Positions 29,270-57,805 of a stretch of DNA of 64,000 nt are shown in pieces. The DNA comes from Methylosinus sp. Sm6 (GTDB lineage: Bacteria > Pseudomonadota > Alphaproteobacteria > Rhizobiales > Beijerinckiaceae), in the NCBI RefSeq assembly GCF_019802345.1, contig NZ_JAINDZ010000018.1, forward strand, positions 1-64,000, written 5' to 3'. A program made the translations under genes and the position numbers. The notes beneath the pieces were generated by a model. That model saw only the letters and a program-made list of their open reading frames with translations, was not told the origin of the DNA and searched no databases. Every line of letters begins with the position of its first letter. Positions within the stretch are counted from its first letter, which is position 1.

Positions 29270-30922
29270 ATGGACCGCCTCAATCAGCTCCGCGACAATC
29301 TGCTCGCGCTCGGGCCCAGAAAGCTTTCCGCCCTCGGTCTGATATTCGTTCTCGTTCTGGCGATCACCGGGCTCGGAGCCTATTACGTCTCGCGGCCCGA
29401 CTTCGAGGTGCTCTACGCCGGCCTCGACCGCGAGGACGTGAGCCGCATCGGCGCCGTGCTCAAATCCTCCGGCGTCGCCTTCGACATCAATCCGGAAGGC
29501 AACGCCGTCCTCGTCCGCTATGGCCAGACGGCGCAGGCGCGCATGCTGCTCGCCGAGCGCGGCCTGCCGCAGAGCGCCAACGCCGGCTATGAGCTGTTCG
29601 ACAAGGTCGGCTCGCTCGGCCTCACCTCCTTCATGCAGGAGGTGACGCGCGTGCGCGCGCTCGAAGGCGAGCTCGCGCGCACCATTCAGCTCATCCGCGG
29701 CGTCAAGGCCGCGCGCGTGCATATCGTGCTGCCCGACGAAGGCTCGTTCCGCCGCGCGCGCCAGCCGCCCTCCGCCTCCGTCGTGATTCGCACCGAGAGC
29801 CCCGACGATTCGAAAGCGGCGCAGGCGATCCGCCATCTCGTCGCCGCCTCCATTCCCGGCATGACGGTCGAGCAGGTCACCGTGCTCAACACCGACGGAA
29901 TGCTGCTCACGGCCTCGGAAGGCGACGAGAACGACGCCGTGCCGGCCAAGACGCTGACGCTCGAGAAGACCGTCTCCAAGGACATTCAGGACAATATTCG
30001 CCGTACGCTCACCCCTTATCTGCGCCTCGCGAACTTCCAGGTCAGCGTGCGCGCCCGCATCAACACGGACCGCAGGCAGACCAATGAGACGGTGTTCGAT
30101 CCCGAATCGCGCGTCGAGCGCTCGGTGCGGGTGGTGAAGGAGAACTCCACCTCCCAGAACAACAGCACCAGCCAGGCCGCCGGCGTCGACCGCAACGTGC
30201 CCCAGGACAAGCCGCAGTCGGGCGAGGGCAAGCAATCGAACGACGAGAACAAGAAGAGCGAGGAGCTGACCAATTTCGAATTGTCGTCGAAGACGGTCAC
30301 GACGGTCAGCGGCGGCTACACGGTCGAAAATCTGTCGATCGCGGTGCTCGTCAATCGCGCGAGCCTCGGCGGGGCCGGCAAGGATGCGCCGAAGCCGGAG
30401 GCGGTCGAGCGGCAGCTGAAGGAGATCGAGCAGCTCGTCGCCTCCGCGGCGGGCGTGCGCAAGGACCGCGGCGACAGCGTCAAAGTCTCCGCCGTCGATT
30501 TCGCGATCAACGAAAACGACCTGTCTCCGGTGGAGCCCGCGGGATGGAGCGAGGCGATCACCCATCAGCTCGGATCGATGATCAACGCCGGCGCGCTCAT
30601 CGTCGTCACCGTGCTGCTCGTTCTCTTCGGCCTGCGTCCGGCCTCGCGCGCATTGCTCGCCGAAGCGCCGCCGCCGGCCCTGGCTATGGCCGAGGACGCG
30701 GCGCCGGCGCTGCTCGGCGCCGAGCCGAGCATCGAATTGCCTTTCGCGCCGATGATGGAGGCGCCGCAGTTCATGGGATCGATCGACGCCGGACTCATCG
30801 AGGATATCGGCGGGCGTGAAAAGTTCAATCAGCAAAAGAAGCTCGAGCAGCTCATCGAAGCCGATGAGATGCAGGCCGCGGCGATCTTGAAGCAATGGAT
30901 GTACGTCGGAGGGAGCGTGTGA
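29270..30922 (+). CDS. fliF: Flagellar MS-ring protein FliF
   Basis: 550 residues. First membrane span at about 20-42 (LSALGLIFVLVLAITGLGAY), then YscJ/FliF ring-building domains (about 45-215: LYAGLDREDVSRIGAVLKS, FMQEVTRVRALEGELARTI), a large periplasmic loop including a Asn/Gln/Ser-rich linker (about 290-330), a second span (about 438-460) and a short cytoplasmic tail that binds FliG. It forms the inner-membrane MS ring. First gene of a tightly packed operon; its stop overlaps the next start (TGATG). Confidence 0.95.
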   Translation: MDRLNQLRDNLLALGPRKLSALGLIFVLVLAITGLGAYYVSRPDFEVLYAGLDREDVSRIGAVLKSSGVAFDINPEGNAVLVRYGQTAQARMLLAERGLPQSANAGYELFDKVGSLGLTSFMQEVTRVRALEGELARTIQLIRGVKAARVHIVLPDEGSFRRARQPPSASVVIRTESPDDSKAAQAIRHLVAASIPGMTVEQVTVLNTDGMLLTASEGDENDAVPAKTLTLEKTVSKDIQDNIRRTLTPYLRLANFQVSVRARINTDRRQTNETVFDPESRVERSVRVVKENSTSQNNSTSQAAGVDRNVPQDKPQSGEGKQSNDENKKSEELTNFELSSKTVTTVSGGYTVENLSIAVLVNRASLGGAGKDAPKPEAVERQLKEIEQLVASAAGVRKDRGDSVKVSAVDFAINENDLSPVEPAGWSEAITHQLGSMINAGALIVVTVLLVLFGLRPASRALLAEAPPPALAMAEDAAPALLGAEPSIELPFAPMMEAPQFMGSIDAGLIEDIGGREKFNQQKKLEQLIEADEMQAAAILKQWMYVGGSV

Positions 30923-31554
30923 TGGCGCGCTCGGTCGCCGATTTTCTGATGCGGTTCGACGAGTCGCCGATCCTCGCGCCGCCGGAGCCGCCGGAGCCGA
31001 TCGCAGAGCCTCTCGTCGAGGAGGAGCGCGTCCCGGAGGAGCCGCGGATCGAGCTCGCCGACGAGCTGCGCGCCGAGCTCGTCGAGGAAGGCCGCGCGGC
31101 CGCCAAAGAGGAATATGAGGCGTTGATCGCGCGCGAGCGGGCGGCGTCGCTGCTGCGGCTCGAAACCGAGCGGCGTCGCTGGGCGCGCGAGGAGGGCGAG
31201 CGGCTCGGCGAGCAATTCCGCTCGGCGCTCGATGGATTCGTCACGCAGGTCGGCGAGGATGTCGGGCGCGTTCTCGAGCCCTTCGTGACGGGCGAGGTGC
31301 GCGACCGCATGTTGGACGCGCTGGTCGACCGGCTGCGGGTGATAATCGCGGATCGGGATCATCCGGTCGTGCGCCTCGGCGGACCGACCGACCTCCTGGA
31401 CGCGCTCTGCGAGAAACTGAGCAGCGAGGGCGTCGCGACTCGCATCGAGGATGTGGGCGGCGTCGATCTGCGCGCGCGCATAGAGGCGACGACGATCGAA
31501 ACGACACTCGGAGAATGGATGCGGGAGCTCCGTGACGAGGGCGGCGCCCAATGA
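30922..31554 (+). CDS. FliH-like flagellar assembly protein
   Basis: 210 residues: a Pro/Glu-rich N-terminus, a long charged helix rich in Glu, Arg and Ala (about 45-100: EEGRAAAKEEYEALIARERA) and a compact C-terminal domain (about 105-205). This is the general plan of FliH, the ATPase FliI's stator that guides export substrates, but sequence identity is too weak to be certain. Position between fliF and motB, with 1-base overlap with fliF and 4-base overlap with motB, supports a flagellar role. Confidence 0.65.
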   Translation: MARSVADFLMRFDESPILAPPEPPEPIAEPLVEEERVPEEPRIELADELRAELVEEGRAAAKEEYEALIARERAASLLRLETERRRWAREEGERLGEQFRSALDGFVTQVGEDVGRVLEPFVTGEVRDRMLDALVDRLRVIIADRDHPVVRLGGPTDLLDALCEKLSSEGVATRIEDVGGVDLRARIEATTIETTLGEWMRELRDEGGAQ

Positions 31555-32708
31555 GCGACGAAGAGGAAAGCGAAATCATCTTCATCCGCAAGCGCCACGG
31601 GAATGACGAGGAGGGCCATCACGGCGGCGCGTGGAAGATCGCCTTCGCCGACTTCATGACGGCGATGATGGCCTTCTTCCTGGTCATGTGGATCATCAAC
31701 TCCACCTCGAAGGAGACCAAGGCGGCGATCGTGCAATATTTCAACCCCGTCCAGCTCGTCGACTCCAATCCCGCGCACAAGGGGCTGCGCGATCCGAAGG
31801 ACGGAGGGCAGGGCAAGAGCACGAAAGAGTCGAACGTCCAGGAGCGGCAGCACGCCGGGCCCGCGGCTGCGAGCGAGAAGGACGAGCCGCTGCGCGAAGC
31901 GGCGCTGCTCTACGATCCGATGTCGACGCTCGACGAGATCGCTGGCCCGGCGGCCGCGAATTCGACGGATGCGTCCGGCAAGCCGGGCCAGGCGCCGCCG
32001 ACCTTCGGCGATCCCTTCGACCGCAGCATGCGCGGCGTCGGCTATGTCGAGCAGCGCCTCGAGGAGAGCGGCTCGCCCGACAAGGCGAGCGAGGCGGAGC
32101 CGGCCGAGGAGCGCGCCAAGCCAGCGGCCACGACGCCGCCGACTAACGCCAAATCCGCGACGCGCCAGCAGCGCCAAGCCGCGTCGGCCGCCGCCGCCGC
32201 TGCGGCCGCGGCGGCGGAGGAAAAGGCGCGGGCCGAGGCGGCGCAAGTCGAGGCGGCGCGCGCCGCGATCGAAAAGATCGTGAAGGCGGAAAGCGCGAGC
32301 GCGCAGCCGGGGCCGCATGTCGAGGTGGCGCAGACATCCGAAGGCTTGCTGATCAGCCTCACCGACGAGGCGAATTTTTCCATGTTCGCGATCGGCTCGG
32401 TCAAGCCGAAGCCGCAGCTCGTGCGCATCATCGGCCAGATCGGCTCCGTGCTCTCCAAGCAGCCCGGCCAGGTCGAGCTGCGCGGCCATACCGACGGACG
32501 CTCCTACAAATCCAAGGTCTACGACAATTGGCGGCTCTCGGCGGACCGCGCCAATATGGCCTATTACATGCTCCTGCGCGGCGGCCTCTCCGAGAAGCGC
32601 GTCGTCAAGATCGCCGGCTACGCCGACCGCAATCTGAAAGAGCCGAAGGAGCCGCTCTCCGCCGTCAACCGCCGCATCGAAATCCTGGTGCGAAAGGGCG
32701 GCCCGTGA
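31551..32708 (+). CDS. motB: Flagellar motor stator protein MotB
   Basis: 385 residues. The single membrane span (about 30-52) carries the proton-binding aspartate at residue 34 (KIAFADFMTAMMAFFLVMWI). An Ala/Glu/Lys-rich linker (about 85-240) leads to the OmpA-like peptidoglycan-binding domain (about 255-380: GQVELRGHTDGRSYKSKVYD, NRRIEILV). With MotA it forms the proton-driven stator. motA lies about 12 kb away at 45028, as in rhizobia. Overlaps the FliH-like gene by 4 bases and motC by 1. Confidence 0.95.
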   Translation: MSDEEESEIIFIRKRHGNDEEGHHGGAWKIAFADFMTAMMAFFLVMWIINSTSKETKAAIVQYFNPVQLVDSNPAHKGLRDPKDGGQGKSTKESNVQERQHAGPAAASEKDEPLREAALLYDPMSTLDEIAGPAAANSTDASGKPGQAPPTFGDPFDRSMRGVGYVEQRLEESGSPDKASEAEPAEERAKPAATTPPTNAKSATRQQRQAASAAAAAAAAAAEEKARAEAAQVEAARAAIEKIVKAESASAQPGPHVEVAQTSEGLLISLTDEANFSMFAIGSVKPKPQLVRIIGQIGSVLSKQPGQVELRGHTDGRSYKSKVYDNWRLSADRANMAYYMLLRGGLSEKRVVKIAGYADRNLKEPKEPLSAVNRRIEILVRKGGP

Positions 32709-33859
32709 TGCGCGTATCGCTTTCTCTCGTCGTGGCCGCGGCGCTGTCGATGTGGAGCGCCGCCGCCGCGCAATCGGACGGGCTGGTCGAGCTGGTGCGC
32801 AAGCTCACCAGCCTCCAGGACGCTCTGGCGCGCGGCGCGGCGCCTGCGCGCGCCGCCATCCCTGCGCAGGTCGAGCAGATCCAATCGGCGATCGCGACGG
32901 CGGAGGCCGATTCCTGGAAGGAGCGGGCGAACGCTCGCGCCGCGGCGACCTTTCTCCTCTGTGGGGGATCGCCGCGCAGCATTCGCAAGCTGTTCGACGC
33001 GCATCTGTTCTCGGACTCGGACCGGCCTCTCCTCGAGGCCAGCCTCGCCTATGCGGAAGGGCGCAGCCGCGAGGCGACGCAGCTGTTCGCGCAGGTCGAT
33101 CCGAAGGCGCAGCCGGCGACGCTCGGCGGCCATGTCGCTCTCGTGCGCGGCGGACTGATGATCGGCTCCGACAATGCGCGAGCGCGCGAGCTGCTCGATC
33201 TCGCGCGTCTGCTCGTGCCGAGCTCGCTGGTCGAGGAGGCGGCGCTGCGGCGCGAGATCGCGGTCGTCGATCCGCTGCAGGACGCCGACAAATTCCTGCT
33301 GCTCGCGCGCCGCTATGTGGCGCAATATCCGCGCTCGCCCTTCGCGCGCAATTTCTGGGGCGAGGCGCGCGCGGCGACGACGCGCGTCGCGACGAGCGTC
33401 TCCGAGCAGCAGCTCGGCGAATTTCTGGAGCTGTTCGACGCTCAGCCGGCCGAGACGCGCTTCGATCTCCATATGGCGATCGCTCAGGCGGCGATTCTGC
33501 GCGGACGTCCCGGGCTCGCGGCGCTCGAGACCGATCGCGCCGCTCCGCTCGCCGACACGCGCCAGGCCAAGGCGCGCGTCGCGCTGCATCGCGCGGCCTT
33601 GACCGCGCTCGGCGGCGACTTCGACGCCGCGGCGGTCGAATTCGCCGAGCTCGACGCCAAGTCTCTCGCGCCGCGCGACAAGGAGCTGCAGGCGATCGTC
33701 TCCGGGGCGATGGAGAGATTGCGGCGCGAGCCCGACGCCGCCGAGGGAGCGGCCGAGGGAGCGGCCATGTCCGCGCGCGCCGAAACGCCGGCCGAAAGGG
33801 CGGCGCGGCAAGCGCTCGCGGACTCGGAAATCGTGCTGCAAAAGGCGGTGGAAAGATGA
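32708..33859 (+). CDS. motC: Periplasmic motility protein MotC
   Basis: 383 residues with a signal peptide (MRVSLSLVVAAALSMWSAAA). The rest is alpha-helical and Ala/Leu/Arg-rich with repeat-like helical pairs (about 60-330), matching rhizobial MotC, a periplasmic protein that binds the MotB linker and is needed for motor rotation. ATG 32708 overlaps the motB stop; the frame upstream of it is a shadow of motB. Its stop overlaps the fliK start by four bases (ATGA). Confidence 0.88.
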   Translation: MRVSLSLVVAAALSMWSAAAAQSDGLVELVRKLTSLQDALARGAAPARAAIPAQVEQIQSAIATAEADSWKERANARAAATFLLCGGSPRSIRKLFDAHLFSDSDRPLLEASLAYAEGRSREATQLFAQVDPKAQPATLGGHVALVRGGLMIGSDNARARELLDLARLLVPSSLVEEAALRREIAVVDPLQDADKFLLLARRYVAQYPRSPFARNFWGEARAATTRVATSVSEQQLGEFLELFDAQPAETRFDLHMAIAQAAILRGRPGLAALETDRAAPLADTRQAKARVALHRAALTALGGDFDAAAVEFAELDAKSLAPRDKELQAIVSGAMERLRREPDAAEGAAEGAAMSARAETPAERAARQALADSEIVLQKAVER

Positions 33860-36800
33860 ATCTCGCTTCGCTGCTGTCGAGCGTCGCAGCCGAACAGCTC
33901 GCGCGCCCTCGCGAGTCCGCGTCGTCTCGCGGACACTTGGAGGAGGGCGCGGCGGGCGCGTCCGCATTCGCCGCCGTTCTCTCGGAGGTGGACGGCGCGG
34001 CGCGCACGGGCGAAACGCAAAATGCGGCCGCCGACGCCTGGGGCGACAGCGAGGCGGAGGAGGGCGCATCCGATTCGACGAAAGCGGCGGACCGCCCGGA
34101 TACGCCGCCGGCGCAAGGCGCCCCGAGCCTGCCTTACGAGCCGCGTCGCGAGCTGGTCCTCGGGCCGGCCGCATTGCCGGCGTCGGCGCCCGCGCCCGAG
34201 CGGGAGGCTGCGTCCGACGGCGCCGACGCGAGCCGACGCACGGCGGAGCCGGCGCGGGCGGTTGCGTTGTCCGCGCCTGCTTCGATCGCGTCCACCCCCG
34301 TAGCCGCGGCGCCTGCGTCAGATGCGCCGCGCGCCGCTCACGGGGTCGCTGCGGCGGCGCCCGCCAGCGCTGCTCCCCGAGAGAAGCGAGACGCATCGCG
34401 CTCGCCGACTGTCGACGCATCGGCGCGGCCGGCTGCGTTCGCAGCGCCGTCTCCGTCTCCGATCGTGTCAGGCGCCGTCGCCGCTTCGCCTGCTTCAGAT
34501 CCGCGCGTCGCTCGCGGGGACGCGGCGGCTATCGTCGGCGCTGCTCCCGAGGAGCGGCGCGATCCCTCACGCTCGTCGACTGACGACGCATCGGCGCGGC
34601 CGGCCGCGTTCGCAGCAAAGTCTGCGACCGTGTCCGCCCCCGTCGCCGCCGCGTCTGCGCCAGAGGCGCGCGCCGATCACGCGGGCGCGGCGGCGCCCGC
34701 TAGCGCTGCTCCGCAGGAGAGTCGCGACGCCTCGCGATCGTCCGCGGTTCACGTTTCGTCGGCGGCGAGCCGAGCGGCGATTGCGCGCCCGTCTTCCGTG
34801 CGGTCCATCGCGGCGGAGACCGGCGCAGCGTCAATTGCGCTCCAGACCGACCAGCGCTCTCGCGACGAGGGCGGGACCGCGTCGATGGCGCCGACCGAAG
34901 CTCCCGTCGAAACTGCGCCGAGCCAATCTTCGGACCCGGCGTCGGGGAGCGAACACCCTGCTGCGACCATCGCGTCGAACGCGCCGTCCAAGACCGGAAC
35001 CGTAGCGCCCGCCTCGGCGCCGCCGAAGACGGATGCGGAGACGTCGGGGACAGCTCCGGCTCGCGCCGAGACGCCGCGGCTGGGCGATGCGGGCGCGACG
35101 AGCCGCGCCCCGCTATCGACAGATGCGGCTGACGCCTCCGCCCCATCGGCGTCGCCCGTTCGTGGCGTGAAGATGGTCCAAGGCTCCGAGCCGAGTCGGA
35201 TGGAGGCGCTCTTCACGAGCTCGCGCGTGGACGTGGCGCCCGCGTCCCTCGCCGCCGCCGTCGCCGAGCCGTCGCAGCCCCAGCGCACGACAGTGATTTC
35301 CGCTGCGCCCGACCTCACGCGAGGCGCAGCGCTCGAGCCCTCCGCCGGTCGCGCGGAAACACAAAAGCTTTCGCCGTCGGCAGAGCCGGCTTATGCGCCG
35401 CCGTCCGTCGCCTCGTCGAGCGCGGCGACGCCCACGAGTATCGCGCCGTCAGCGGTCTCGGAGCCTCTTCCCGCCGTGAGCGACGCGCCGGCGGTGGACG
35501 CAGAATCGGCGACGGCGACGCCGGCCTCGACGCAACGCGCTCCGCAGCCATCGGCGGTAGAGCCGGCGGCCGAAGCGGAGGCGGGTCCGCCCGAAGCGGC
35601 GCGCGCCGTTTCTTTTATCCCTACCTCGACGGCGACCGCCGAGGCCGCCCCCACGCGCGACCAAACCCCTGTGGCCGCAACGCGGGCTGTGGAGGCGGCG
35701 TATGTTTCGCACAACGCCGCCCCGCGCGCGGCTGCGACTCCGAACCCGCCTGTCGCGCAACACCACGCTGGCCCGATCGATGCCAGCGAGTCGGTCTCGC
35801 GCGCGGCGCCGGCGACGCCCCAGGCCGAAATTGCGGTCGGCGATTCTGCGACTGCCGAGGGCGCCGCCGCTTCGCCTGCTGGCGACGCTCCGGTTCGCGA
35901 TCCGAATGGCGCAGACGCTCGCCCGCCGAGCTCCGCGGCGTCCTATCCGCTCCGAAGCGTCGTTTCTGTCGAGGCCGCGCCGGAACAGGCGCGACTCGGA
36001 ATGTCGCCAGCGGAGGGTTCGGTCGCGCCGACCGCCTCGCCGGCGATTTCTACCGCCGTCTCGCCGCCGACGAGAACCGATTCGAACGAGCCTCATACGC
36101 GGGCCGAGAGCGCTTTCGTGCCGCCCACGGCCGCGGCGGCCCTGGGCAGCCGCGTCTCGGGAGACGCAGTCGAAGGCGCCCGGGCCGAGACGCCGGCGCC
36201 TCGCGCCGAAATATTCGTGCTTCCGACGCCCGAACCTTCGCTTTCTCCCGCGGAGGACGAGAGCGCAACGCGCATCGTCGTCGAAGAAGCGCGGTCGTCG
36301 GCGCTTCGCAGTCCTCCCACAGATGGGGGGCGCAGGACGGCCTCGATCGAGCCGACCGCCGCGCCGGTGATTCATCGGTCCGCGCCCGTGACCGAGGCGG
36401 TCCGCGCAAGATCCATGGATGAGGTCGCAACTCCAGTTTCCGTTCCCGCGGACCACGCAGGCGAGGCCAGCGTCGTCGTCGATGAAGGGGCGCCTTCCAT
36501 GCGCCTTTCTCCTCTTCCTCCTTCTTCGGAGGAGGGGCGCTCTTCCGGCGACGCCATGATCCCGGCAACCGCGGAGAGGGCGGCCGTTGTCGTCGAACGC
36601 GAGGCGTCGCAATCGTCGTCCGCGCGCTCTTCCACGACGCTCCGCGCTCCGCCGGCCGCCTCGAACCCATCGGCGGCCTCGCGCGGTCAGTCGGCGGCCG
36701 AGAGCGCGCCTGCGCCGCGGCTCGATCCGCGCCCGCTCGATGCTCCGCGCGGGGCCCCCGCGCCGGAAAGCGTCGTCATCTCCCAGCGCTCACAGACCGC

Positions 36801-39696
36801 TGAGCCTGTGGGCGCCGTTACGCGGAGCCCGGCCGCCGTCGAAGCGCCGTCGCTCCGCCCGGCGCCTGGCGGAGCTCCCGTCACGGAACGTCAGCCCTCT
36901 CGGCCACTCGCGGAGCCGACCGCTAGGACCGATCCGACGCTGACCGCCGCCCGCTCAGCGCCGGCGCCCGCTCAGAGCGAATCGCCGCGCGTCGCCGATT
37001 CCGTTTTCCGAGGCGCCGAGACGATCGACGTCCGCGCCGACAGCGCGTCGGGCGTGCGAGCGCCGGCGGCGCCCGAATCGACGAAAGTTGCCGAGCCGGC
37101 GCTCGCCGCGTCGTCGCGCGCTTCCACCGTTTCGACATCGACGCCGGCCTCGGCGGACGAAGCCGCGCCGAGGAGCGAGGAGCCGTCTCATCCTGCTCCC
37201 GCTTCCCTGCGGGCGGATGCGACGCGCGGCGCCGAGCCGAAGGATGGGCCGCCGGTCGCGGCGCCGCCGTCTGGTGGGGCCGGCCGAGCACATTCGTCGG
37301 ACGCCGCCGGCCGCGATCCTCTCGCTGTCTCGGCGGGCCCGAGAGTGACGGGCGCGCTGGCGCAGGAGGCGCCGTCCTCGTCCACTGACGAGATGCGCCA
37401 TATCGCGCAGAGCCCGGCGCCGCCCCGCGTCGGGAGCGCGGCGGGCGAGACCGCAGCTTCCACTCCGAGACCGAGCGCGCAGTCCGCGCCGGAGCGCTCG
37501 CCTTTGGTTGACGCCGCGCCTTTGCCGAAGGGAGAGACGCAGGTTTCCGCGCGGAACGAGGCCTTGTCCGCCCCTGCCGCGTCCGGGGTTTCCGCCGATA
37601 GGTCGAAGACGATCGCGAGTCCTGCGGCGGAGCCGGCGATCGCGCCGCGCGCGGCTTCGGATCGGGCCGCCGCGCCGGCGGCTCCCGCCGCCGAGACCGT
37701 GACGTCCGCTCCAAAACCGAGCGCGTCCCCGGCGACCGGAGCAGCCGCTTCTGTCGTCGACTCCGCGTCGTCGAGCCCTGCCGCCGGATCGCGCGCATCG
37801 TTCGCGGCGGCTGCGGCCCTCCTCGATTCATCCAAGGCGATCTCGCATCCAGCGGCCGAGCCGCCGATCCCGCCGCGGGCGGCTGCCGACCGGGCCGCCG
37901 CGCCTTCGGCGCCGGCCGGCGAGACCGCGACGTCCGCTCCGCGAGAGAGCGCGCCCCCGACGACCGAGCGTGCGCCTGCGGTCGACCTCCCGCTTTCGCA
38001 AAAGAGCGTCGCCCCCGTCGTCGCCGAGTTGCGCTCGTCTTCCGCGGCCTCCGGGGCGCTCGTCGCTTCCTCGAAGGCGGCCTCGAGTCCCGCGGCGGAG
38101 GAGCCGAGGATCGCGCCTCGCGCCGCTTCCGAGCGACCCGCCGCGCCCTCGGCTCCCGCCGCCCCGCCGCCGACTCCGCGCCCGCGAGAGGACGAGTCGT
38201 CGACGCTCCGGACGGCGGAGGCAAAGGTCGATGCTCCGGCGCGAGCCGTTGCGTCAGACGCGCCGCCGACGAGCGCCGTCGCCGCGCGTCCCGAGCCGAG
38301 GCCCCCTCACGTCACCGACGCGCGGCAGGCGTCGTCGGATGTCGCGAACGCGCCGCATCCGCAGCCCGCCCTCGCTGCCGCCGCTCCGGCGGAGCGGCCC
38401 GAACCGACGGCCGCCGCGTCCCGGCCCGCGCCGCCGAGCGAAGCCGCGGTTTCGCGCGAGGGCGAACACGCGGAATCGTTCCCGCGCGCCGAGCCGAAGA
38501 CAGCTTCCGCTCCGAAAACCGCAGCCGTCGCAGGGGAGAATCGCGCGCCTGCCGCGCCATCCGCCGCGACTGTGAGCGCGGCGGCCGCGCCGGAGGCGGT
38601 CCGCGATGACGGGCTTCTCGCCCTGCTGCGCTCGATCCCCGCCGGGCGTTTCGCCTCGCCGGTCGCCGCGCGCGCGCCGGCCCGGGAGGATGTCGCCCGC
38701 CCGACCTCGCGCGCCTCAGCAGCGACCGCCGACGCCGTGAGGTCGCCGTTCGACATCGCGTCCGCGCTTCCGTCGCTCATCGCCGGCGACGGCTCGCGTG
38801 CGACGGCCGATGCGCGAACGGGCGACGGAGCGATCGCCGCGCCGACGGCGGCGCCGACCGCTGCGGTCGAGAGCTTCGGAAAGGATTTCGCCGCGACTGC
38901 GTCCGCCGTCGAGCCGCCGTCGCCGCCCATGGAGCGGCCTTCGCCACATGACGAGCCGCACGCCGCTCGCAGCGAGACGCATCCGGCGGCGGTCGCGGCG
39001 TCGCGCGCCGTCGCGACCCCGGCGGCCGGCGAGACCACCGCGCCGGCTGCGGCGGAGGAGGAGGTTGTCGCCGCGCCGCTCGGGCGTGTCGATCTTTCCG
39101 CTCCCACGGCAAATCCCGCTCCGGCGATGGCGGCGATGCTCGCCCCGCAGGCGCGCAGCTTGCTCGGCCTCGCGCCGGGCCGCGGCCCGGGCGGGGCATC
39201 CGGCTCCTCGGACGCCGCGCCGCGCGCCAGCTCCCTCAGCGCCAAGACGTCTCTCGGCGCCAAGACGTCTCTCGCGGCCAAGACGATGACCATCGAGCTC
39301 GCGCCGGAATCGCTCGGCGTGGTCGTCGTGAAGATGAAGCTCGCGCATTCGGGCGTCGATATGAAGATCAGCGTTCGCTCGCCGGAGGCGCTGCGCGACC
39401 TCGAATCCGCTCGCGACGCCTTGGTCGAGGCGATGCGGTCGGTCGGATGCGCGATCGACGGCTGCACGATTCAGATGTCCGCCGCCGCGACCGACGGGAC
39501 GCAGGCGGGAGGGCAGGGCTTCTCTACAGCGTCCAATGGCGCGGAGAGCGAGCCGCGAGAGCGGACGATCTCGGAAGAAGGAACGGGCGATGGACAGGGC
39601 GCGGGCGGACGGCGGCGCGAGACCGCGCGGGACGATGGCGCGCCGGAGACGGCGGCTCGGCGTCCTGTCGATGGTCGCGGCGGCGTCTATCTGTGA
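33856..39696 (+). CDS. fliK: Giant flagellar hook-length control protein (FliK/MotD)
   Basis: 1946 residues, one uninterrupted frame, several times the usual 350-650 residues. The N-terminus MNLASLLSSVAAEQLARPRE is followed by about 1750 residues of Ala/Pro/Ser/Glu-rich low-complexity sequence with almost no aromatic residues, likely disordered. The C-terminus (about 1805-1885: TMTIELAPESLGVVVVKMKL, then GVDMKISVRSPEALRDLESA) is a normal Flg_hook domain, which switches export from hook to filament subunits. Rhizobial MotD is this protein. Internally duplicated blocks lie at about residues 161-311 and 1248-1440. It starts in an ATGA overlap with motC and its end overlaps the transglycosylase gene. 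The frame upstream of 33856 is antisense or shadow of motC. Confidence 0.88.
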   Translation: MNLASLLSSVAAEQLARPRESASSRGHLEEGAAGASAFAAVLSEVDGAARTGETQNAAADAWGDSEAEEGASDSTKAADRPDTPPAQGAPSLPYEPRRELVLGPAALPASAPAPEREAASDGADASRRTAEPARAVALSAPASIASTPVAAAPASDAPRAAHGVAAAAPASAAPREKRDASRSPTVDASARPAAFAAPSPSPIVSGAVAASPASDPRVARGDAAAIVGAAPEERRDPSRSSTDDASARPAAFAAKSATVSAPVAAASAPEARADHAGAAAPASAAPQESRDASRSSAVHVSSAASRAAIARPSSVRSIAAETGAASIALQTDQRSRDEGGTASMAPTEAPVETAPSQSSDPASGSEHPAATIASNAPSKTGTVAPASAPPKTDAETSGTAPARAETPRLGDAGATSRAPLSTDAADASAPSASPVRGVKMVQGSEPSRMEALFTSSRVDVAPASLAAAVAEPSQPQRTTVISAAPDLTRGAALEPSAGRAETQKLSPSAEPAYAPPSVASSSAATPTSIAPSAVSEPLPAVSDAPAVDAESATATPASTQRAPQPSAVEPAAEAEAGPPEAARAVSFIPTSTATAEAAPTRDQTPVAATRAVEAAYVSHNAAPRAAATPNPPVAQHHAGPIDASESVSRAAPATPQAEIAVGDSATAEGAAASPAGDAPVRDPNGADARPPSSAASYPLRSVVSVEAAPEQARLGMSPAEGSVAPTASPAISTAVSPPTRTDSNEPHTRAESAFVPPTAAAALGSRVSGDAVEGARAETPAPRAEIFVLPTPEPSLSPAEDESATRIVVEEARSSALRSPPTDGGRRTASIEPTAAPVIHRSAPVTEAVRARSMDEVATPVSVPADHAGEASVVVDEGAPSMRLSPLPPSSEEGRSSGDAMIPATAERAAVVVEREASQSSSARSSTTLRAPPAASNPSAASRGQSAAESAPAPRLDPRPLDAPRGAPAPESVVISQRSQTAEPVGAVTRSPAAVEAPSLRPAPGGAPVTERQPSRPLAEPTARTDPTLTAARSAPAPAQSESPRVADSVFRGAETIDVRADSASGVRAPAAPESTKVAEPALAASSRASTVSTSTPASADEAAPRSEEPSHPAPASLRADATRGAEPKDGPPVAAPPSGGAGRAHSSDAAGRDPLAVSAGPRVTGALAQEAPSSSTDEMRHIAQSPAPPRVGSAAGETAASTPRPSAQSAPERSPLVDAAPLPKGETQVSARNEALSAPAASGVSADRSKTIASPAAEPAIAPRAASDRAAAPAAPAAETVTSAPKPSASPATGAAASVVDSASSSPAAGSRASFAAAAALLDSSKAISHPAAEPPIPPRAAADRAAAPSAPAGETATSAPRESAPPTTERAPAVDLPLSQKSVAPVVAELRSSSAASGALVASSKAASSPAAEEPRIAPRAASERPAAPSAPAAPPPTPRPREDESSTLRTAEAKVDAPARAVASDAPPTSAVAARPEPRPPHVTDARQASSDVANAPHPQPALAAAAPAERPEPTAAASRPAPPSEAAVSREGEHAESFPRAEPKTASAPKTAAVAGENRAPAAPSAATVSAAAAPEAVRDDGLLALLRSIPAGRFASPVAARAPAREDVARPTSRASAATADAVRSPFDIASALPSLIAGDGSRATADARTGDGAIAAPTAAPTAAVESFGKDFAATASAVEPPSPPMERPSPHDEPHAARSETHPAAVAASRAVATPAAGETTAPAAAEEEVVAAPLGRVDLSAPTANPAPAMAAMLAPQARSLLGLAPGRGPGGASGSSDAAPRASSLSAKTSLGAKTSLAAKTMTIELAPESLGVVVVKMKLAHSGVDMKISVRSPEALRDLESARDALVEAMRSVGCAIDGCTIQMSAAATDGTQAGGQGFSTASNGAESEPRERTISEEGTGDGQGAGGRRRETARDDGAPETAARRPVDGRGGVYL
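34340..34790 (+). repeat. Threefold tandem repeat inside fliK
   Basis: Three copies of a roughly 55-60-residue unit, recognisable by RDASRSPTVDASARPAAFAA, RDPSRSSTDDASARPAAFAA and RDASRSSAVHVSSAASRAA. The first two are also very similar in DNA (GACGCATCGGCGCGGCCGG block). The third is more diverged. Confidence 0.75.
37597..38175 (+). repeat. Second threefold repeat inside fliK
   Basis: Units begin at 37597 (DRSKTIASPAAEPAIAPRAA), 37825 (DSSKAISHPAAEPPIPPRAA) and 38065 (ASSKAASSPAAEEPRIAPRA), spaced 76 and 80 codons, each followed by an (A/S)(D/E)R(A/P)AAP(A/S)AP block. They show growth by in-frame duplication. Confidence 0.75.
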
Positions 39697-40234
39697 CGCC
39701 CGCGCCGCCGGCGCGCCGCCGCGGAACATTTGCGAGCGGGAGATGATCCAGGCCGCCAATGAGCATGCGGTGCCGCTCGCCGTGCTCTACGCTGTGGCGC
39801 TGACCGAGACCGGCCAGAGGGGCGCGCTCAACGCCTATGCGATGAATGTGCAAGGACGCCCGGTGTTCAGCGCCGATCTGCGCGAGGCGCTGGAGCGCTT
39901 CGCGGCGGCGCGGCGCGCGGGCGCGGCGCTGATCGACATCGGCTGCATGCAGGTCAATCATCACTTTCACGGCGCGAAGTTCGCGTCGGTGGAGGCGATG
40001 TTCGATCCGCGGCTCAATGTCGGCTATGCGGCGAAGTTCCTGAAGGCGCTGCGCGCGAGCGAAGGCAGCTGGACGGCGGCCGTGGCGCGCTATCACGCCG
40101 GACCCGGCAACGCGCCCGCGCAAAAGACCTATGTGTGCGCGGTGATCGCCAATATGGTGGCGAGCGGCTTCGGCTCATGGACCGAGGCCGCGCACGATTT
40201 CTGCCGTCCGCGCGGGCATTTGGTGGCGCGATAG
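39590..40234 (+). CDS. Lytic transglycosylase (SLT domain), flagellar locus
   Basis: 214 residues. A signal-anchor (about 15-38) is followed by an SLT fold (about 45-195): catalytic Glu in YAVALTETGQRGALNAYAMN, then DIGCMQVNHHFH and VARYHAGPGN. It cleaves peptidoglycan, presumably to let the rod through the wall; rhizobia keep a similar gene after motD. ATG 39590 is chosen for AAGGAAC upstream. It overlaps the fliK C-terminus by 107 bases in another frame, an unusually long overlap. Confidence 0.85.
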   Translation: MDRARADGGARPRGTMARRRRRLGVLSMVAAASICDARAAGAPPRNICEREMIQAANEHAVPLAVLYAVALTETGQRGALNAYAMNVQGRPVFSADLREALERFAAARRAGAALIDIGCMQVNHHFHGAKFASVEAMFDPRLNVGYAAKFLKALRASEGSWTAAVARYHAGPGNAPAQKTYVCAVIANMVASGFGSWTEAAHDFCRPRGHLVAR

Positions 40235-48393: not shown

Positions 48394-49467
48394 ATGAGCG
48401 ACTCGGAAGATGACGAGTCCCGAACAGAAGAAGCGACCGAGAAAAAGATCCTCGACGCGCTGGAGCAAGGCAAGACCCCGGTCTCGCGCGACGTGGCCGT
48501 CGCCTCCATGTTCCTCGCCTTTCTGCTCTGCGTCAGCTTCGTCTTCCAGACGGTCGGCCCGCGCCTCGTCCTGGCGATGCAGCTGATGCTGGCCAATGTC
48601 GGCCAATTCTCGCTCGCCAACGGCGCCGACGCCTTCATGCAGTCGCGCGCGGTCGCCGAGGAGGTCGGCCGCTTTCTCGCGCCGACATTGGCCATATTCA
48701 TGGTCGCAGGCCTGCTCGCCGCGGCTGTGCAGGGCGCGCCGCGCGTCGTGTTCAAGCGCATCGAGCTCGACGCCTCGCGCATCTCGCCGCAGCAAGGGCT
48801 GAAGCGCATCTTCGGCCTTCCCGGATTGGTCGAGCTGCTGAAGGCGATCGTCAAGATCGCCGTCATCGGCGGCGGCGTCGTGTTCTCGCTGACGGTCGAC
48901 CGGGACCTCATCTTCGACGCGATGCGAATGGAGCCGGCGCAGCTTCCGTCGCTGCTGCTGAAGCTGACGATTCGCCTGACCAGCGTCGTCTGCATCCCGG
49001 TGGTGCTGATCGCGCTCGCCGATCTCGCCTGGACGAAATTCAAATGGCGGCGCGACATGCGCATGAGCCGGCAGGAGCTGAAGGAGGAGATGAAGCAGTC
49101 GGAAGGCGATCCCTTCGTGAAGGCGCGCCTGCGCTCGCTGGCGCTCGAGCGTTCGCGCAAGCGCATGATGGCGCAGGTGCCGCGCGCGACGCTCGTGATC
49201 GCCAACCCGACTCACTATGCGATCGCGCTGCGCTACTCGCGCTCCGAAGGCGGCGCGCCGCTCGTCGTCGCCAAGGGCAAGGACCTCATTGCGCTCAAGA
49301 TCAGGGAAATCGCCGAGGAGCATGGCGTGCCCGTGCTGGAGCGTCCCGAGCTCGCACGCGCGATGTATAATCAGGTCGAGGTCGATCAGATGATTCCCTC
49401 GGAATTCTACCGCCCCGTCGCCGAGCTCATTCACTTCCTGACCGCTCGCGGCTCCGCCTCGCGTTGA
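48394..49467 (+). CDS. flhB: Flagellar export gate protein FlhB
   Basis: 357 residues. The N-terminal half has four membrane spans (about 33-200). The cytoplasmic autocleavage site is Asn271-Pro-Thr-His274 (NPTHYAIALRY), which sets substrate specificity together with FliK; the linker MRMSRQELKEEMKQSEGDP precedes it. It lies 13 bases after fliG. The export-gate partners FlhA and FliPQR are not in the window. Confidence 0.96.
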   Translation: MSDSEDDESRTEEATEKKILDALEQGKTPVSRDVAVASMFLAFLLCVSFVFQTVGPRLVLAMQLMLANVGQFSLANGADAFMQSRAVAEEVGRFLAPTLAIFMVAGLLAAAVQGAPRVVFKRIELDASRISPQQGLKRIFGLPGLVELLKAIVKIAVIGGGVVFSLTVDRDLIFDAMRMEPAQLPSLLLKLTIRLTSVVCIPVVLIALADLAWTKFKWRRDMRMSRQELKEEMKQSEGDPFVKARLRSLALERSRKRMMAQVPRATLVIANPTHYAIALRYSRSEGGAPLVVAKGKDLIALKIREIAEEHGVPVLERPELARAMYNQVEVDQMIPSEFYRPVAELIHFLTARGSASR

Positions 49468-56059: not shown

Positions 56060-57805
56060 ATGAATCAGCATGTCAGCGCACTGAAGGCGACGGTCACGTT
56101 GACGGGCGCCAATCGAGACCAGTTGCGGCCCTCCGGCGTCAAGGGCTTGGGAGACGTGCCCTGGGGTGCGCATTTCTGCCAGTTCTACGACAGCGACAGC
56201 GAGCTGCTGGAGATTCTCGTTCCTTATTTCGCCGCAGGCTTGGCGTCGAACGAGTTTTGCATGTGGATCACCTCCGAGACGATCGGCAAGACGCAAGCGA
56301 TGGTCGCGCTGCGGGCGGCCGTTCCGAATCTGCAGAGCTTTCTCGACCGGGGCCAATTGGAAATTCTCGATTTTCGCGACTGGTACAAGATCACCAGCAG
56401 TTTCGACGCGGGCCGCGTCTGCCGCGGCTGGAACAGCCGGTATGAAGCCGCGCTGGCGCGCGGCTTCGACGGCATGCGCGTCTCCGGCGACACTTCTTGG
56501 CTGCAGGCGGAGGAATGGGACGATTTCGTCCATTATGAAAAACACGTCGATCCGATCATCGGCTCCTCGCGCATGATCGCGCTCTGCACTTATTCGCTCG
56601 CGCACGGCGACCGGGCGAGGACCTGCGAGGTGATGGCCAATCACCAATTCGCCCTGCTGCGGCAGGGGGACCGGTGGGGAGCGGTCGAGAGCTACGGCCG
56701 CCGCCGCGCCGAGCGAGCGCTCCGCCAGAGCGAGATTCGGCTGCGCGCCACCATCGAGAGCGCCACCGATGGAATCATCACCGTCGACGAGCGCGGCGAG
56801 GTGACCTTGGCCAATCCGGCCGCCGCGGCGATGTTCGGCTATCGGCTGGACGAGCTGCTCGGCGAGAGCGTCGCCCTGCTGCTCGGGCGCGGCCGCGGCT
56901 CGCGCGAGCGCAATCGGACCGATTATCTCGCGATCGTCGATCGCGGCTATTTCGGACGGCGGCGCGAGCTGCATTGGCGCCACAGGGATGGCTCGGCCGT
57001 TCCGGTCGAATGCGCCATCAGCGAGATCAGGGTCGATCACCCGAGCCGGCTGTTCGTGATCTGCCTGCATGACCTGACCGAACGCCGTCAGATCGAGGCG
57101 CGCGTGAGGCAGCTGCACAGCGACCGGCTGCTCGCGATGGGAGGCATGGCCACGACGCTGGCGCATGAGCTCAACCAGCCGCTGACGGCGACCGTCGCTT
57201 ATCTGAAAGCCGCCAAACGCATCCTCGCCAAGCAGGGCGGTCCGGATTCGAACGAAGCCGAGGCGGCGCTGGCCAAAGCCTGCGAGCAGGTCCTGCGCGC
57301 CGGCGACATCATCCGCCACACGCGCGAGTTCATCGCGCGCCGTGAGCCCAACAAGACATGCGAGCGTCTCCACGCGCTCATCGAGAGCGCCTGGCGGTTG
57401 ACCGCGGCGACCGCCGCCCACGCCGGGGTGATTGGGGCTCTCGAGCTCGACGCCGGATGCGACCGTATCGTCGGCGACGCGGTTCAGCTGAAGCAGGTGA
57501 TGGTGAACCTCATCCGCAATGCGATAGAGGCGCTGCAGGGGGCGGACGTCCGCCGGCTCGTGATATCGACTGCGGCGATCGAGGGCGGCATGATCCGCGT
57601 GGACATCGCCGACACCGGCCCGGGACTCTCGGAGGCGGCGCGAGCGCGTCTGTTCGAGCCGTTCAAGACGAGCAAAGCGGTCGGCCTCGGCGTCGGCCTG
57701 GCGCTGTCGCGCTCGATCATCGAGGCGCATTACGGGAAGATCTGGGCGGAGCTCAGTGAGGGAGGCGGAACGGCGCTTCGCTTCACCTTGCCGCTGGCGG
57801 AGTGA
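56060..57805 (+). CDS. MEDS-PAS sensor histidine kinase
   Basis: 581 residues, soluble. An N-terminal MEDS domain (about 25-200: VPWGAHFCQFYDSDSELLEI, EFCMWITSETIGKTQAM, WNSRYEAALARGFDGMRVSG) is the sensory domain first described in methylotroph DcmR-type regulators and methanogens. A PAS domain (about 222-345: LRATIESATDGIITVDERGE), HisKA with phosphate-accepting His369 (LAHELNQPLTATVAYLKAAK) and HATPase (about 455-580, NLIRNAIEALQGA, DTGPGLSEAARARLFEPF) follow; the kinase part resembles FixL-type enzymes. No response regulator gene is adjacent, so its output is unknown. Confidence 0.9.
   Translation: MNQHVSALKATVTLTGANRDQLRPSGVKGLGDVPWGAHFCQFYDSDSELLEILVPYFAAGLASNEFCMWITSETIGKTQAMVALRAAVPNLQSFLDRGQLEILDFRDWYKITSSFDAGRVCRGWNSRYEAALARGFDGMRVSGDTSWLQAEEWDDFVHYEKHVDPIIGSSRMIALCTYSLAHGDRARTCEVMANHQFALLRQGDRWGAVESYGRRRAERALRQSEIRLRATIESATDGIITVDERGEVTLANPAAAAMFGYRLDELLGESVALLLGRGRGSRERNRTDYLAIVDRGYFGRRRELHWRHRDGSAVPVECAISEIRVDHPSRLFVICLHDLTERRQIEARVRQLHSDRLLAMGGMATTLAHELNQPLTATVAYLKAAKRILAKQGGPDSNEAEAALAKACEQVLRAGDIIRHTREFIARREPNKTCERLHALIESAWRLTAATAAHAGVIGALELDAGCDRIVGDAVQLKQVMVNLIRNAIEALQGADVRRLVISTAAIEGGMIRVDIADTGPGLSEAARARLFEPFKTSKAVGLGVGLALSRSIIEAHYGKIWAELSEGGGTALRFTLPLAE

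Follow-up and report, generated by a model that had tools for sequence, protein, structure and literature searches.

The hook-length control protein FliK of Salmonella is described as being secreted during hook growth, with its N-terminal part and linker measuring the hook and its C-terminal domain switching export through its action on FlhB (PMC6972891). FliK proteins engineered to 363-785 residues are reported to give controlled hooks of 42-135 nm, with 0.2 nm gained per added residue, and foreign segments of YscP inserted into FliK were counted as part of the ruler, lengthening the hook linearly; in the title and headings of the same report, Salmonella motility is presented as best at the wild-type hook length (PMC6126814). 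A linker longer by 40 residues is reported to weaken switching, and a spontaneous 100-residue duplication to improve a linker-deleted, export-deficient FliK (PMC6972891), so that growth of this protein by duplication does occur. Among alphaproteobacterial Flg_hook proteins, MotD/FliK of Sinorhizobium meliloti, whose gene also lies near motC, and FliK of Caulobacter crescentus have been described (PMC8429497, PMC8545394).

The window analysed here is a stretch of 64,000 nucleotides from Methylosinus sp. Sm6, taken from a GC-rich draft assembly of 162 contigs. Its fliK gene is encoded inside a flagellar gene cluster that includes:

30895-31554, forward strand: gene of 219 residues upstream of motB, without Pfam or NCBIfam family
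31551-32708, forward strand: motB, with MotB_plug and OmpA (Pfam) and with PRK05996 above its cut-off
32528-33859, forward strand: motC, upstream of fliK and overlapping it as ATGA, called from PRK12798 models and synteny; the start is the first listed start codon
33856-39696, forward strand: fliK (motD), 1946 codons plus stop, called from translation, Pfam, junction and frame stops
39536-40234, forward strand: lytic transglycosylase (SLT) gene following fliK, called by Pfam; its first ATG overlaps fliK, and the real start may be later
48394-49467, forward strand: flhB (Bac_export_2, E 9.8e-110), the presumed switch partner of FliK

Like the Salmonella protein (405 residues, engineered to 785), the FliK of the window has a flexible chain before a Flg_hook switch domain (PMC6972891, PMC6126814), and the FlhB partner is present in its genome. 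Unlike it, the window FliK, known here from its sequence, is nearly five times the wild-type length and has an Ala/Ser/Pro-rich middle with tandem repeats. The needle rulers YscP and PscP (SctP) serve injectisomes, whereas this fliK sits among flagellar genes. MotD/FliK of S. meliloti and FliK of C. crescentus are, unlike the window FliK, of ordinary size.

Besides motB, motC and flhB, the window contains flagellin, fliF, motA, fliM, fliN, fliG, fliE, rod genes and FlgI. Another contig carries flgE (412 residues), flgK, flbT, flgD, flhA and, in the flgL position, a protein with flagellin N and C domains. The genome has one FlgE_D2 match and one Flg_hook match, so the subset of flagellar genes searched points to an apparently single flagellar system with one FliK. 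The order motB-motC-fliK-SLT is maintained across the genus. The motC call draws on NCBIfam PRK12798 models at E 2.6e-71 and 240.9 bits, a score short of the curated cut-off (487). The 219-residue gene, which occupies what we take to be the position of motE in rhizobia, has counterparts of 25-78% identity in 16 of the 20 loci searched in relatives. The SLT gene after fliK was also found in genus loci; as a guess, its product is possibly a flagellum-specific cell-wall cutter.

As originally predicted, fliK is one uninterrupted frame in ATGA overlap with motC. Its translation gives 1946 residues with a single terminal stop and no internal one, and the five alternative reading frames across it contain 12, 12, 15, 16 and 19 stops; so long a frame is thus unlikely to have arisen by chance, even at 74.5% GC (68.2% in the window as a whole). 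The overlap of the fliK ATG with the motC stop recurs in all eight other genus members whose 5' end lies on the contig. A longer mechanical ORF of 2314 residues from GTG 32752 was rejected, since its start lies inside motC and the ATGA start is kept in 9/9 genomes. The predicted Flg_hook domain at the end of the protein was recovered as PF02120 at residues 1807-1875 (E 7.9e-8 and 32.5 bits with the whole protein), and in a search of the 5.13-Mb genome PF02120 matched once only, in FliK, at 38.7 bits. Both scores lie above the curated cut-off of 29.8, and the latter is the weakest of the ten genus copies (42.8-53.5 bits in the others). Pfam found no further domain in the middle, and NCBIfam and PHROGs searches of the whole protein assigned no family. 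It is near certain that this gene is the genome's sole, genuine fliK, and we regard its product as a real, extreme form of a known protein.

Within the gene, all on the forward strand, the following parts were distinguished:

33856-34035: conserved N-terminal segment, residues 1-60 (genus conservation, rough dN/dS)
34036-39183: Ala/Ser/Pro-rich, predicted-disordered middle, residues 61-1776 (composition, proline spacing, fast evolution, gap phase)
34295-34740: degenerate in-frame tandem repeat with a period of 165 bp and spacings of 171 and 165 bp between copies
37596-38163: second in-frame repeat family of three copies, spacings 228 and 243 bp
39235-39285: tandem repeat of 18 bp (6 residues) that lies immediately ahead of the C-terminal domain match and runs into its start
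39274-39480: Flg_hook (PF02120) export-switch core, residues 1807-1875 (Pfam, alignment, model)
39481-39693: C-terminal tail, its last residues a conserved -YL (genus alignment)

The first ~60 and the last ~170 residues can be aligned across the genus. Residues 1-60 are 22-60% identical to those of the eight other members, and may presumably act as an export/hook-cap-binding signal. In the last 156 residues, the alignment of ten genus sequences has 32 invariant columns, and all ten C-termini contain an LGx[VI]xV stretch. As a guess, this stretch may correspond to the V302/I304 region, the conserved hydrophobic residues of the switch core in Salmonella. AlphaFold modelled the C-terminal domain with low confidence (mean pLDDT 53.5), in a strand-strand-strand-helix-strand order. 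In the PDB, this low-confidence model came closest to the SS domain of PscP (E 5.2e-3, probability 1.00), as expected for a FliK family member given the fold relation stated for FliK and SctP switch domains (PMC6972891). Against the PDB the model had no match below 0.001, the remaining listed matches look unrelated, and a sequence-profile search with the C-terminus matched no chain in the PDB at E values up to 1.

The middle, which had been predicted to be of low complexity, is so in its Ala/Ser/Pro-rich composition, its proline spacing and its order-promoting fraction. Over its full length the protein consists of 26% Ala, 13% Ser and 13% Pro and is poor in hydrophobic residues. Proline makes up 13.9% of the middle, with a longest proline-free run of 33 residues, and ~14% in the relative G146, with a longest run of 24, evidence in both for a chain that is disordered and extended. 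In the remaining genus members the middle contains 7-9% proline, with longest proline-free runs of 38-69 residues, so that helical stretches are still possible there; the short FliK of G199 is not Ala-rich (10%). We presume that the middle is the ruler/linker. By a rough counting method, dN/dS in five pairs was 0.24-0.45 for the N-terminus, 0.50-0.65 for the middle, where the values for distant pairs suffer from unreliable alignment, and 0.27-0.41 for the C-terminus. Variability at the three codon positions between the window and G146 was 0.514, 0.425 and 0.475; that third positions are not the most variable is probably due to the unalignable middle. In DNA-only alignments of the closest pairs, most gaps were multiples of three (24/24 for G078/G174, 35/38 for G078/G161, 17/22 for G174/G161), as against 18/36 for G042/G187 and 42/85 for the window and G146, which are farther apart.

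The long repeats of the window gene are 73-84% alike, and their copies are thus too diverged for easy misassembly. In-frame arrays are also found in the fliK genes of G146 (147 bp, about ten copies) and G161 (144 bp, four copies), so in the three longest members the middle is lengthened, in part at least, through in-frame tandem duplication. With a minimum score of 80, six of the nine genus members showed no array, so that older growth has been blurred or came about in another way.

The comparison of FliK length among relatives, proposed with the original prediction, covered ten genus genomes including the window's, each with exactly one Flg_hook match; in one (G105) the copy is cut by a contig end, leaving nine with a readable start. 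From the ATGA start these proteins measure 472 (G199), 931 (G128), 981 (G042), 1309 (G078), 1372 (G174), 1448 (G187), 1526 (G161), 1946 (window) and 2091 residues (G146), the last encoded on a 4.5-Mb contig. Among three species with MotB 92-95% identical, FliK length differs by 63-217 residues. The 472-residue protein of G199 (L043:5188-6603) provides an internal short contrast to the giant forms of the same genus. In a MotB-MotC tree of 16 genomes, the window pairs with G146, the six members with 931-1526 residues cluster, and G199 falls beside that six-member group with weak support (0.57). Both two separate expansions in the genus and one expansion with later loss fit this pattern.

Beyond the genus (10/10 genomes matched), PF02120 matched 148/199 genomes of the family, 295/397 of the order, 84/152 of the class sample and 129/160 of the phylum sample. 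Lengths were taken from the genus, family, order and class surveys. Repeat searches of 24 family and 158 order genomes extended coverage to the best match of every matching family and order genome, with second, weaker matches covered for part of them. The predicted exceptional size holds within the class sample, where none of the other 83 of the 84 matching genomes has a stop-to-stop frame longer than 1201 residues, and such frames are upper limits that are often inflated by GC. Starting at the motC junction indeed shortens them, from 1375 to 859 residues in G188, from 1099 to 569 in G147 and from 1012 to 566 in G083; the first of these is the longest best-match frame that the family yields beyond the genus. 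Among the non-genus members of the family, eight genes, hand-picked with longer frames preferred and hence a non-random set (G054 and G198 among them), start at a -4 junction after a motC-like gene and encode 453-859 residues. Long frames without a settled start include those of G375 (1395), G282 (1278), G500 (1218), G649 (1201) and G109 (1034), and, to judge from shifts in composition, those of G375, G282 and G500 are probably shorter; in G325, another long FliK has 1324 residues from the first ATG.

The size is not unique, in that 8/9 genus members exceed 900 residues and a FliK of ~2048 residues occurs in another family of the order; the notion that a giant FliK is confined to the window genome was rejected on these grounds. 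The gene from the other family (G209) is the one other frame above 1400 residues among the matches covered in the order. It is open for 2167 residues, encodes ~2048 from the first ATG clear of a neighbouring antisense gene, carries Flg_hook at E 5.8e-12 and is followed by flgD. This frame is less secure than the window's, because one antisense frame has just one stop. A tblastn search of the surrounding 14 kb detected neither motB nor motC, so the gene probably belongs to another flagellar type and a separate expansion, and giant FliK proteins probably arose at least twice in the order. The G209 locus (L093:4533-10676) also contains a 117-bp tandem repeat in FliK, and its genome has a second Flg_hook match.

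With these data in mind, one may consider how such a protein would work. According to our main reading, to which we assign a probability of about 0.5, the window encodes a genuine FliK with an N-terminal export segment, a hugely lengthened disordered ruler/linker and a standard switch domain, and its hook is longer than usual. FliK would be exported through the growing hook with its chain spanning the channel, and the hook would grow until the C-terminal export-switch domain is held near FlhB, on which it should act; a longer chain would then result in a longer hook. For the long-hook step taken alone the odds are roughly even. For the window FliK the extrapolated hook length is 363 nm with 0.2 nm per residue, 286 nm with 0.15 and, for a fully stretched chain with 0.37, 625 nm, all far beyond the calibrated range of up to 785 residues. 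If the Salmonella slope holds, hooks would reach ~360 nm in the window genome, ~390 nm in the relative with 2091 residues, ~170 nm and ~160 nm in those with 981 and 931, and ~70 nm in the one with 472. The predicted hook of several times 55 nm is an extrapolation from the Salmonella calibration; with 13.9% proline in the middle, that slope, read in Salmonella as helical, may not apply. Our literature search, mostly of titles and the starts of abstracts, brought up no report that we recognised as dealing with a FliK so large or with hook length in Methylosinus.

The ruler reading is supported by several features of the sequences, namely a C-terminal Flg_hook that is single in the genome, conserved ends around a variable middle, the kept gene order, the presence of hook and switch parts, giant forms in G146 and G209, and in-frame arrays in G146 and G161. 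The published linear gain of 0.2 nm per residue, obtained partly with YscP inserts (PMC6126814), points the same way. Against it, the drift of 63-217 residues would, under the ruler model, shift hooks by ~13-43 nm between close species, which calls for caution in predicting hook length; the reports that Salmonella motility is best at the wild-type hook length (PMC6126814) and that 40 added linker residues weaken switching (PMC6972891) also argue against it.

It is possible, and to us nearly as likely as a long-hook ruler, though well short of an even chance, that the ends of FliK do the work and the hook is ordinary. The middle would then be a weakly constrained disordered linker, grown by slippage and duplication in GC-rich DNA and either compacted or left unmeasured past the hook tip. 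The fast shifts of length in the genus, repeats that are recognisable as simple in-frame tandem copies, the higher dN/dS of the middle and the GC content of fliK, raised above that of the window, are consistent with this. Yet even foreign inserts are reported to lengthen the Salmonella hook linearly (PMC6126814), passing ~1500 extra residues through the export channel would presumably be costly if useless, and the frames of all nine full-length genus copies are free of stops. We consider it unlikely that length acts as a timer, mainly by prolonging transit and letting the switch domain work on FlhB for longer, so that timing sets a hook that might even be short; slowed FliK secretion is reported to flip the switch without a measured structure in Salmonella, but the same report links slower secretion in the wild type to the measuring of length (PMC13344023), and Flg_hook is the sole domain that Pfam detects here, with no family from NCBIfam or PHROGs. 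Finally, a frameshift, a chimaera or a wrong start could make the true gene much shorter, for which the GC-rich draft and the longer mechanical ORF might be adduced. This we hold to be very improbable and already largely refuted, given no stop in 1946 codons, the version of 2091 residues on a large contig of another species, the identical ATGA junction in every readable member and repeats too unlike to misassemble easily. A frameshift or repeat-assembly error, considered in the original prediction as well, is countered by the lengths and the junction in the other genus genomes, and an assembly artefact was ruled out by the long FliK proteins found there.

On the ruler reading, one may further speculate, tentatively and at somewhat less than even odds, that some methanotrophs naturally build hooks of 150-400 nm that evolve from species to species by gain or loss of FliK repeats of ~50 residues. 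What the sequences establish is the FliK length series: one genus, with a single FliK match per genome and an ordinary hook protein where checked, spans 472-2091 residues, reaching well past the reported Salmonella calibration limit of 785 (PMC6126814). This series offers a natural test between two possibilities: FliK may still measure the hook at 2000 residues, or switching can be uncoupled from length.

An unusual hook protein was considered as a peculiarity of this system and rejected, FlgE being ordinary in size where checked. It has 412 residues in the window genome and, with a matching start, in G146, where the mechanical ORF has 471; stop-to-stop frames in the ten genus members run from 413 to 479 residues. 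Elsewhere in the window, positions 56060-57805 encode a sensor kinase with MEDS (methanogen/methylotroph DcmR sensory), PAS and histidine-kinase domains.
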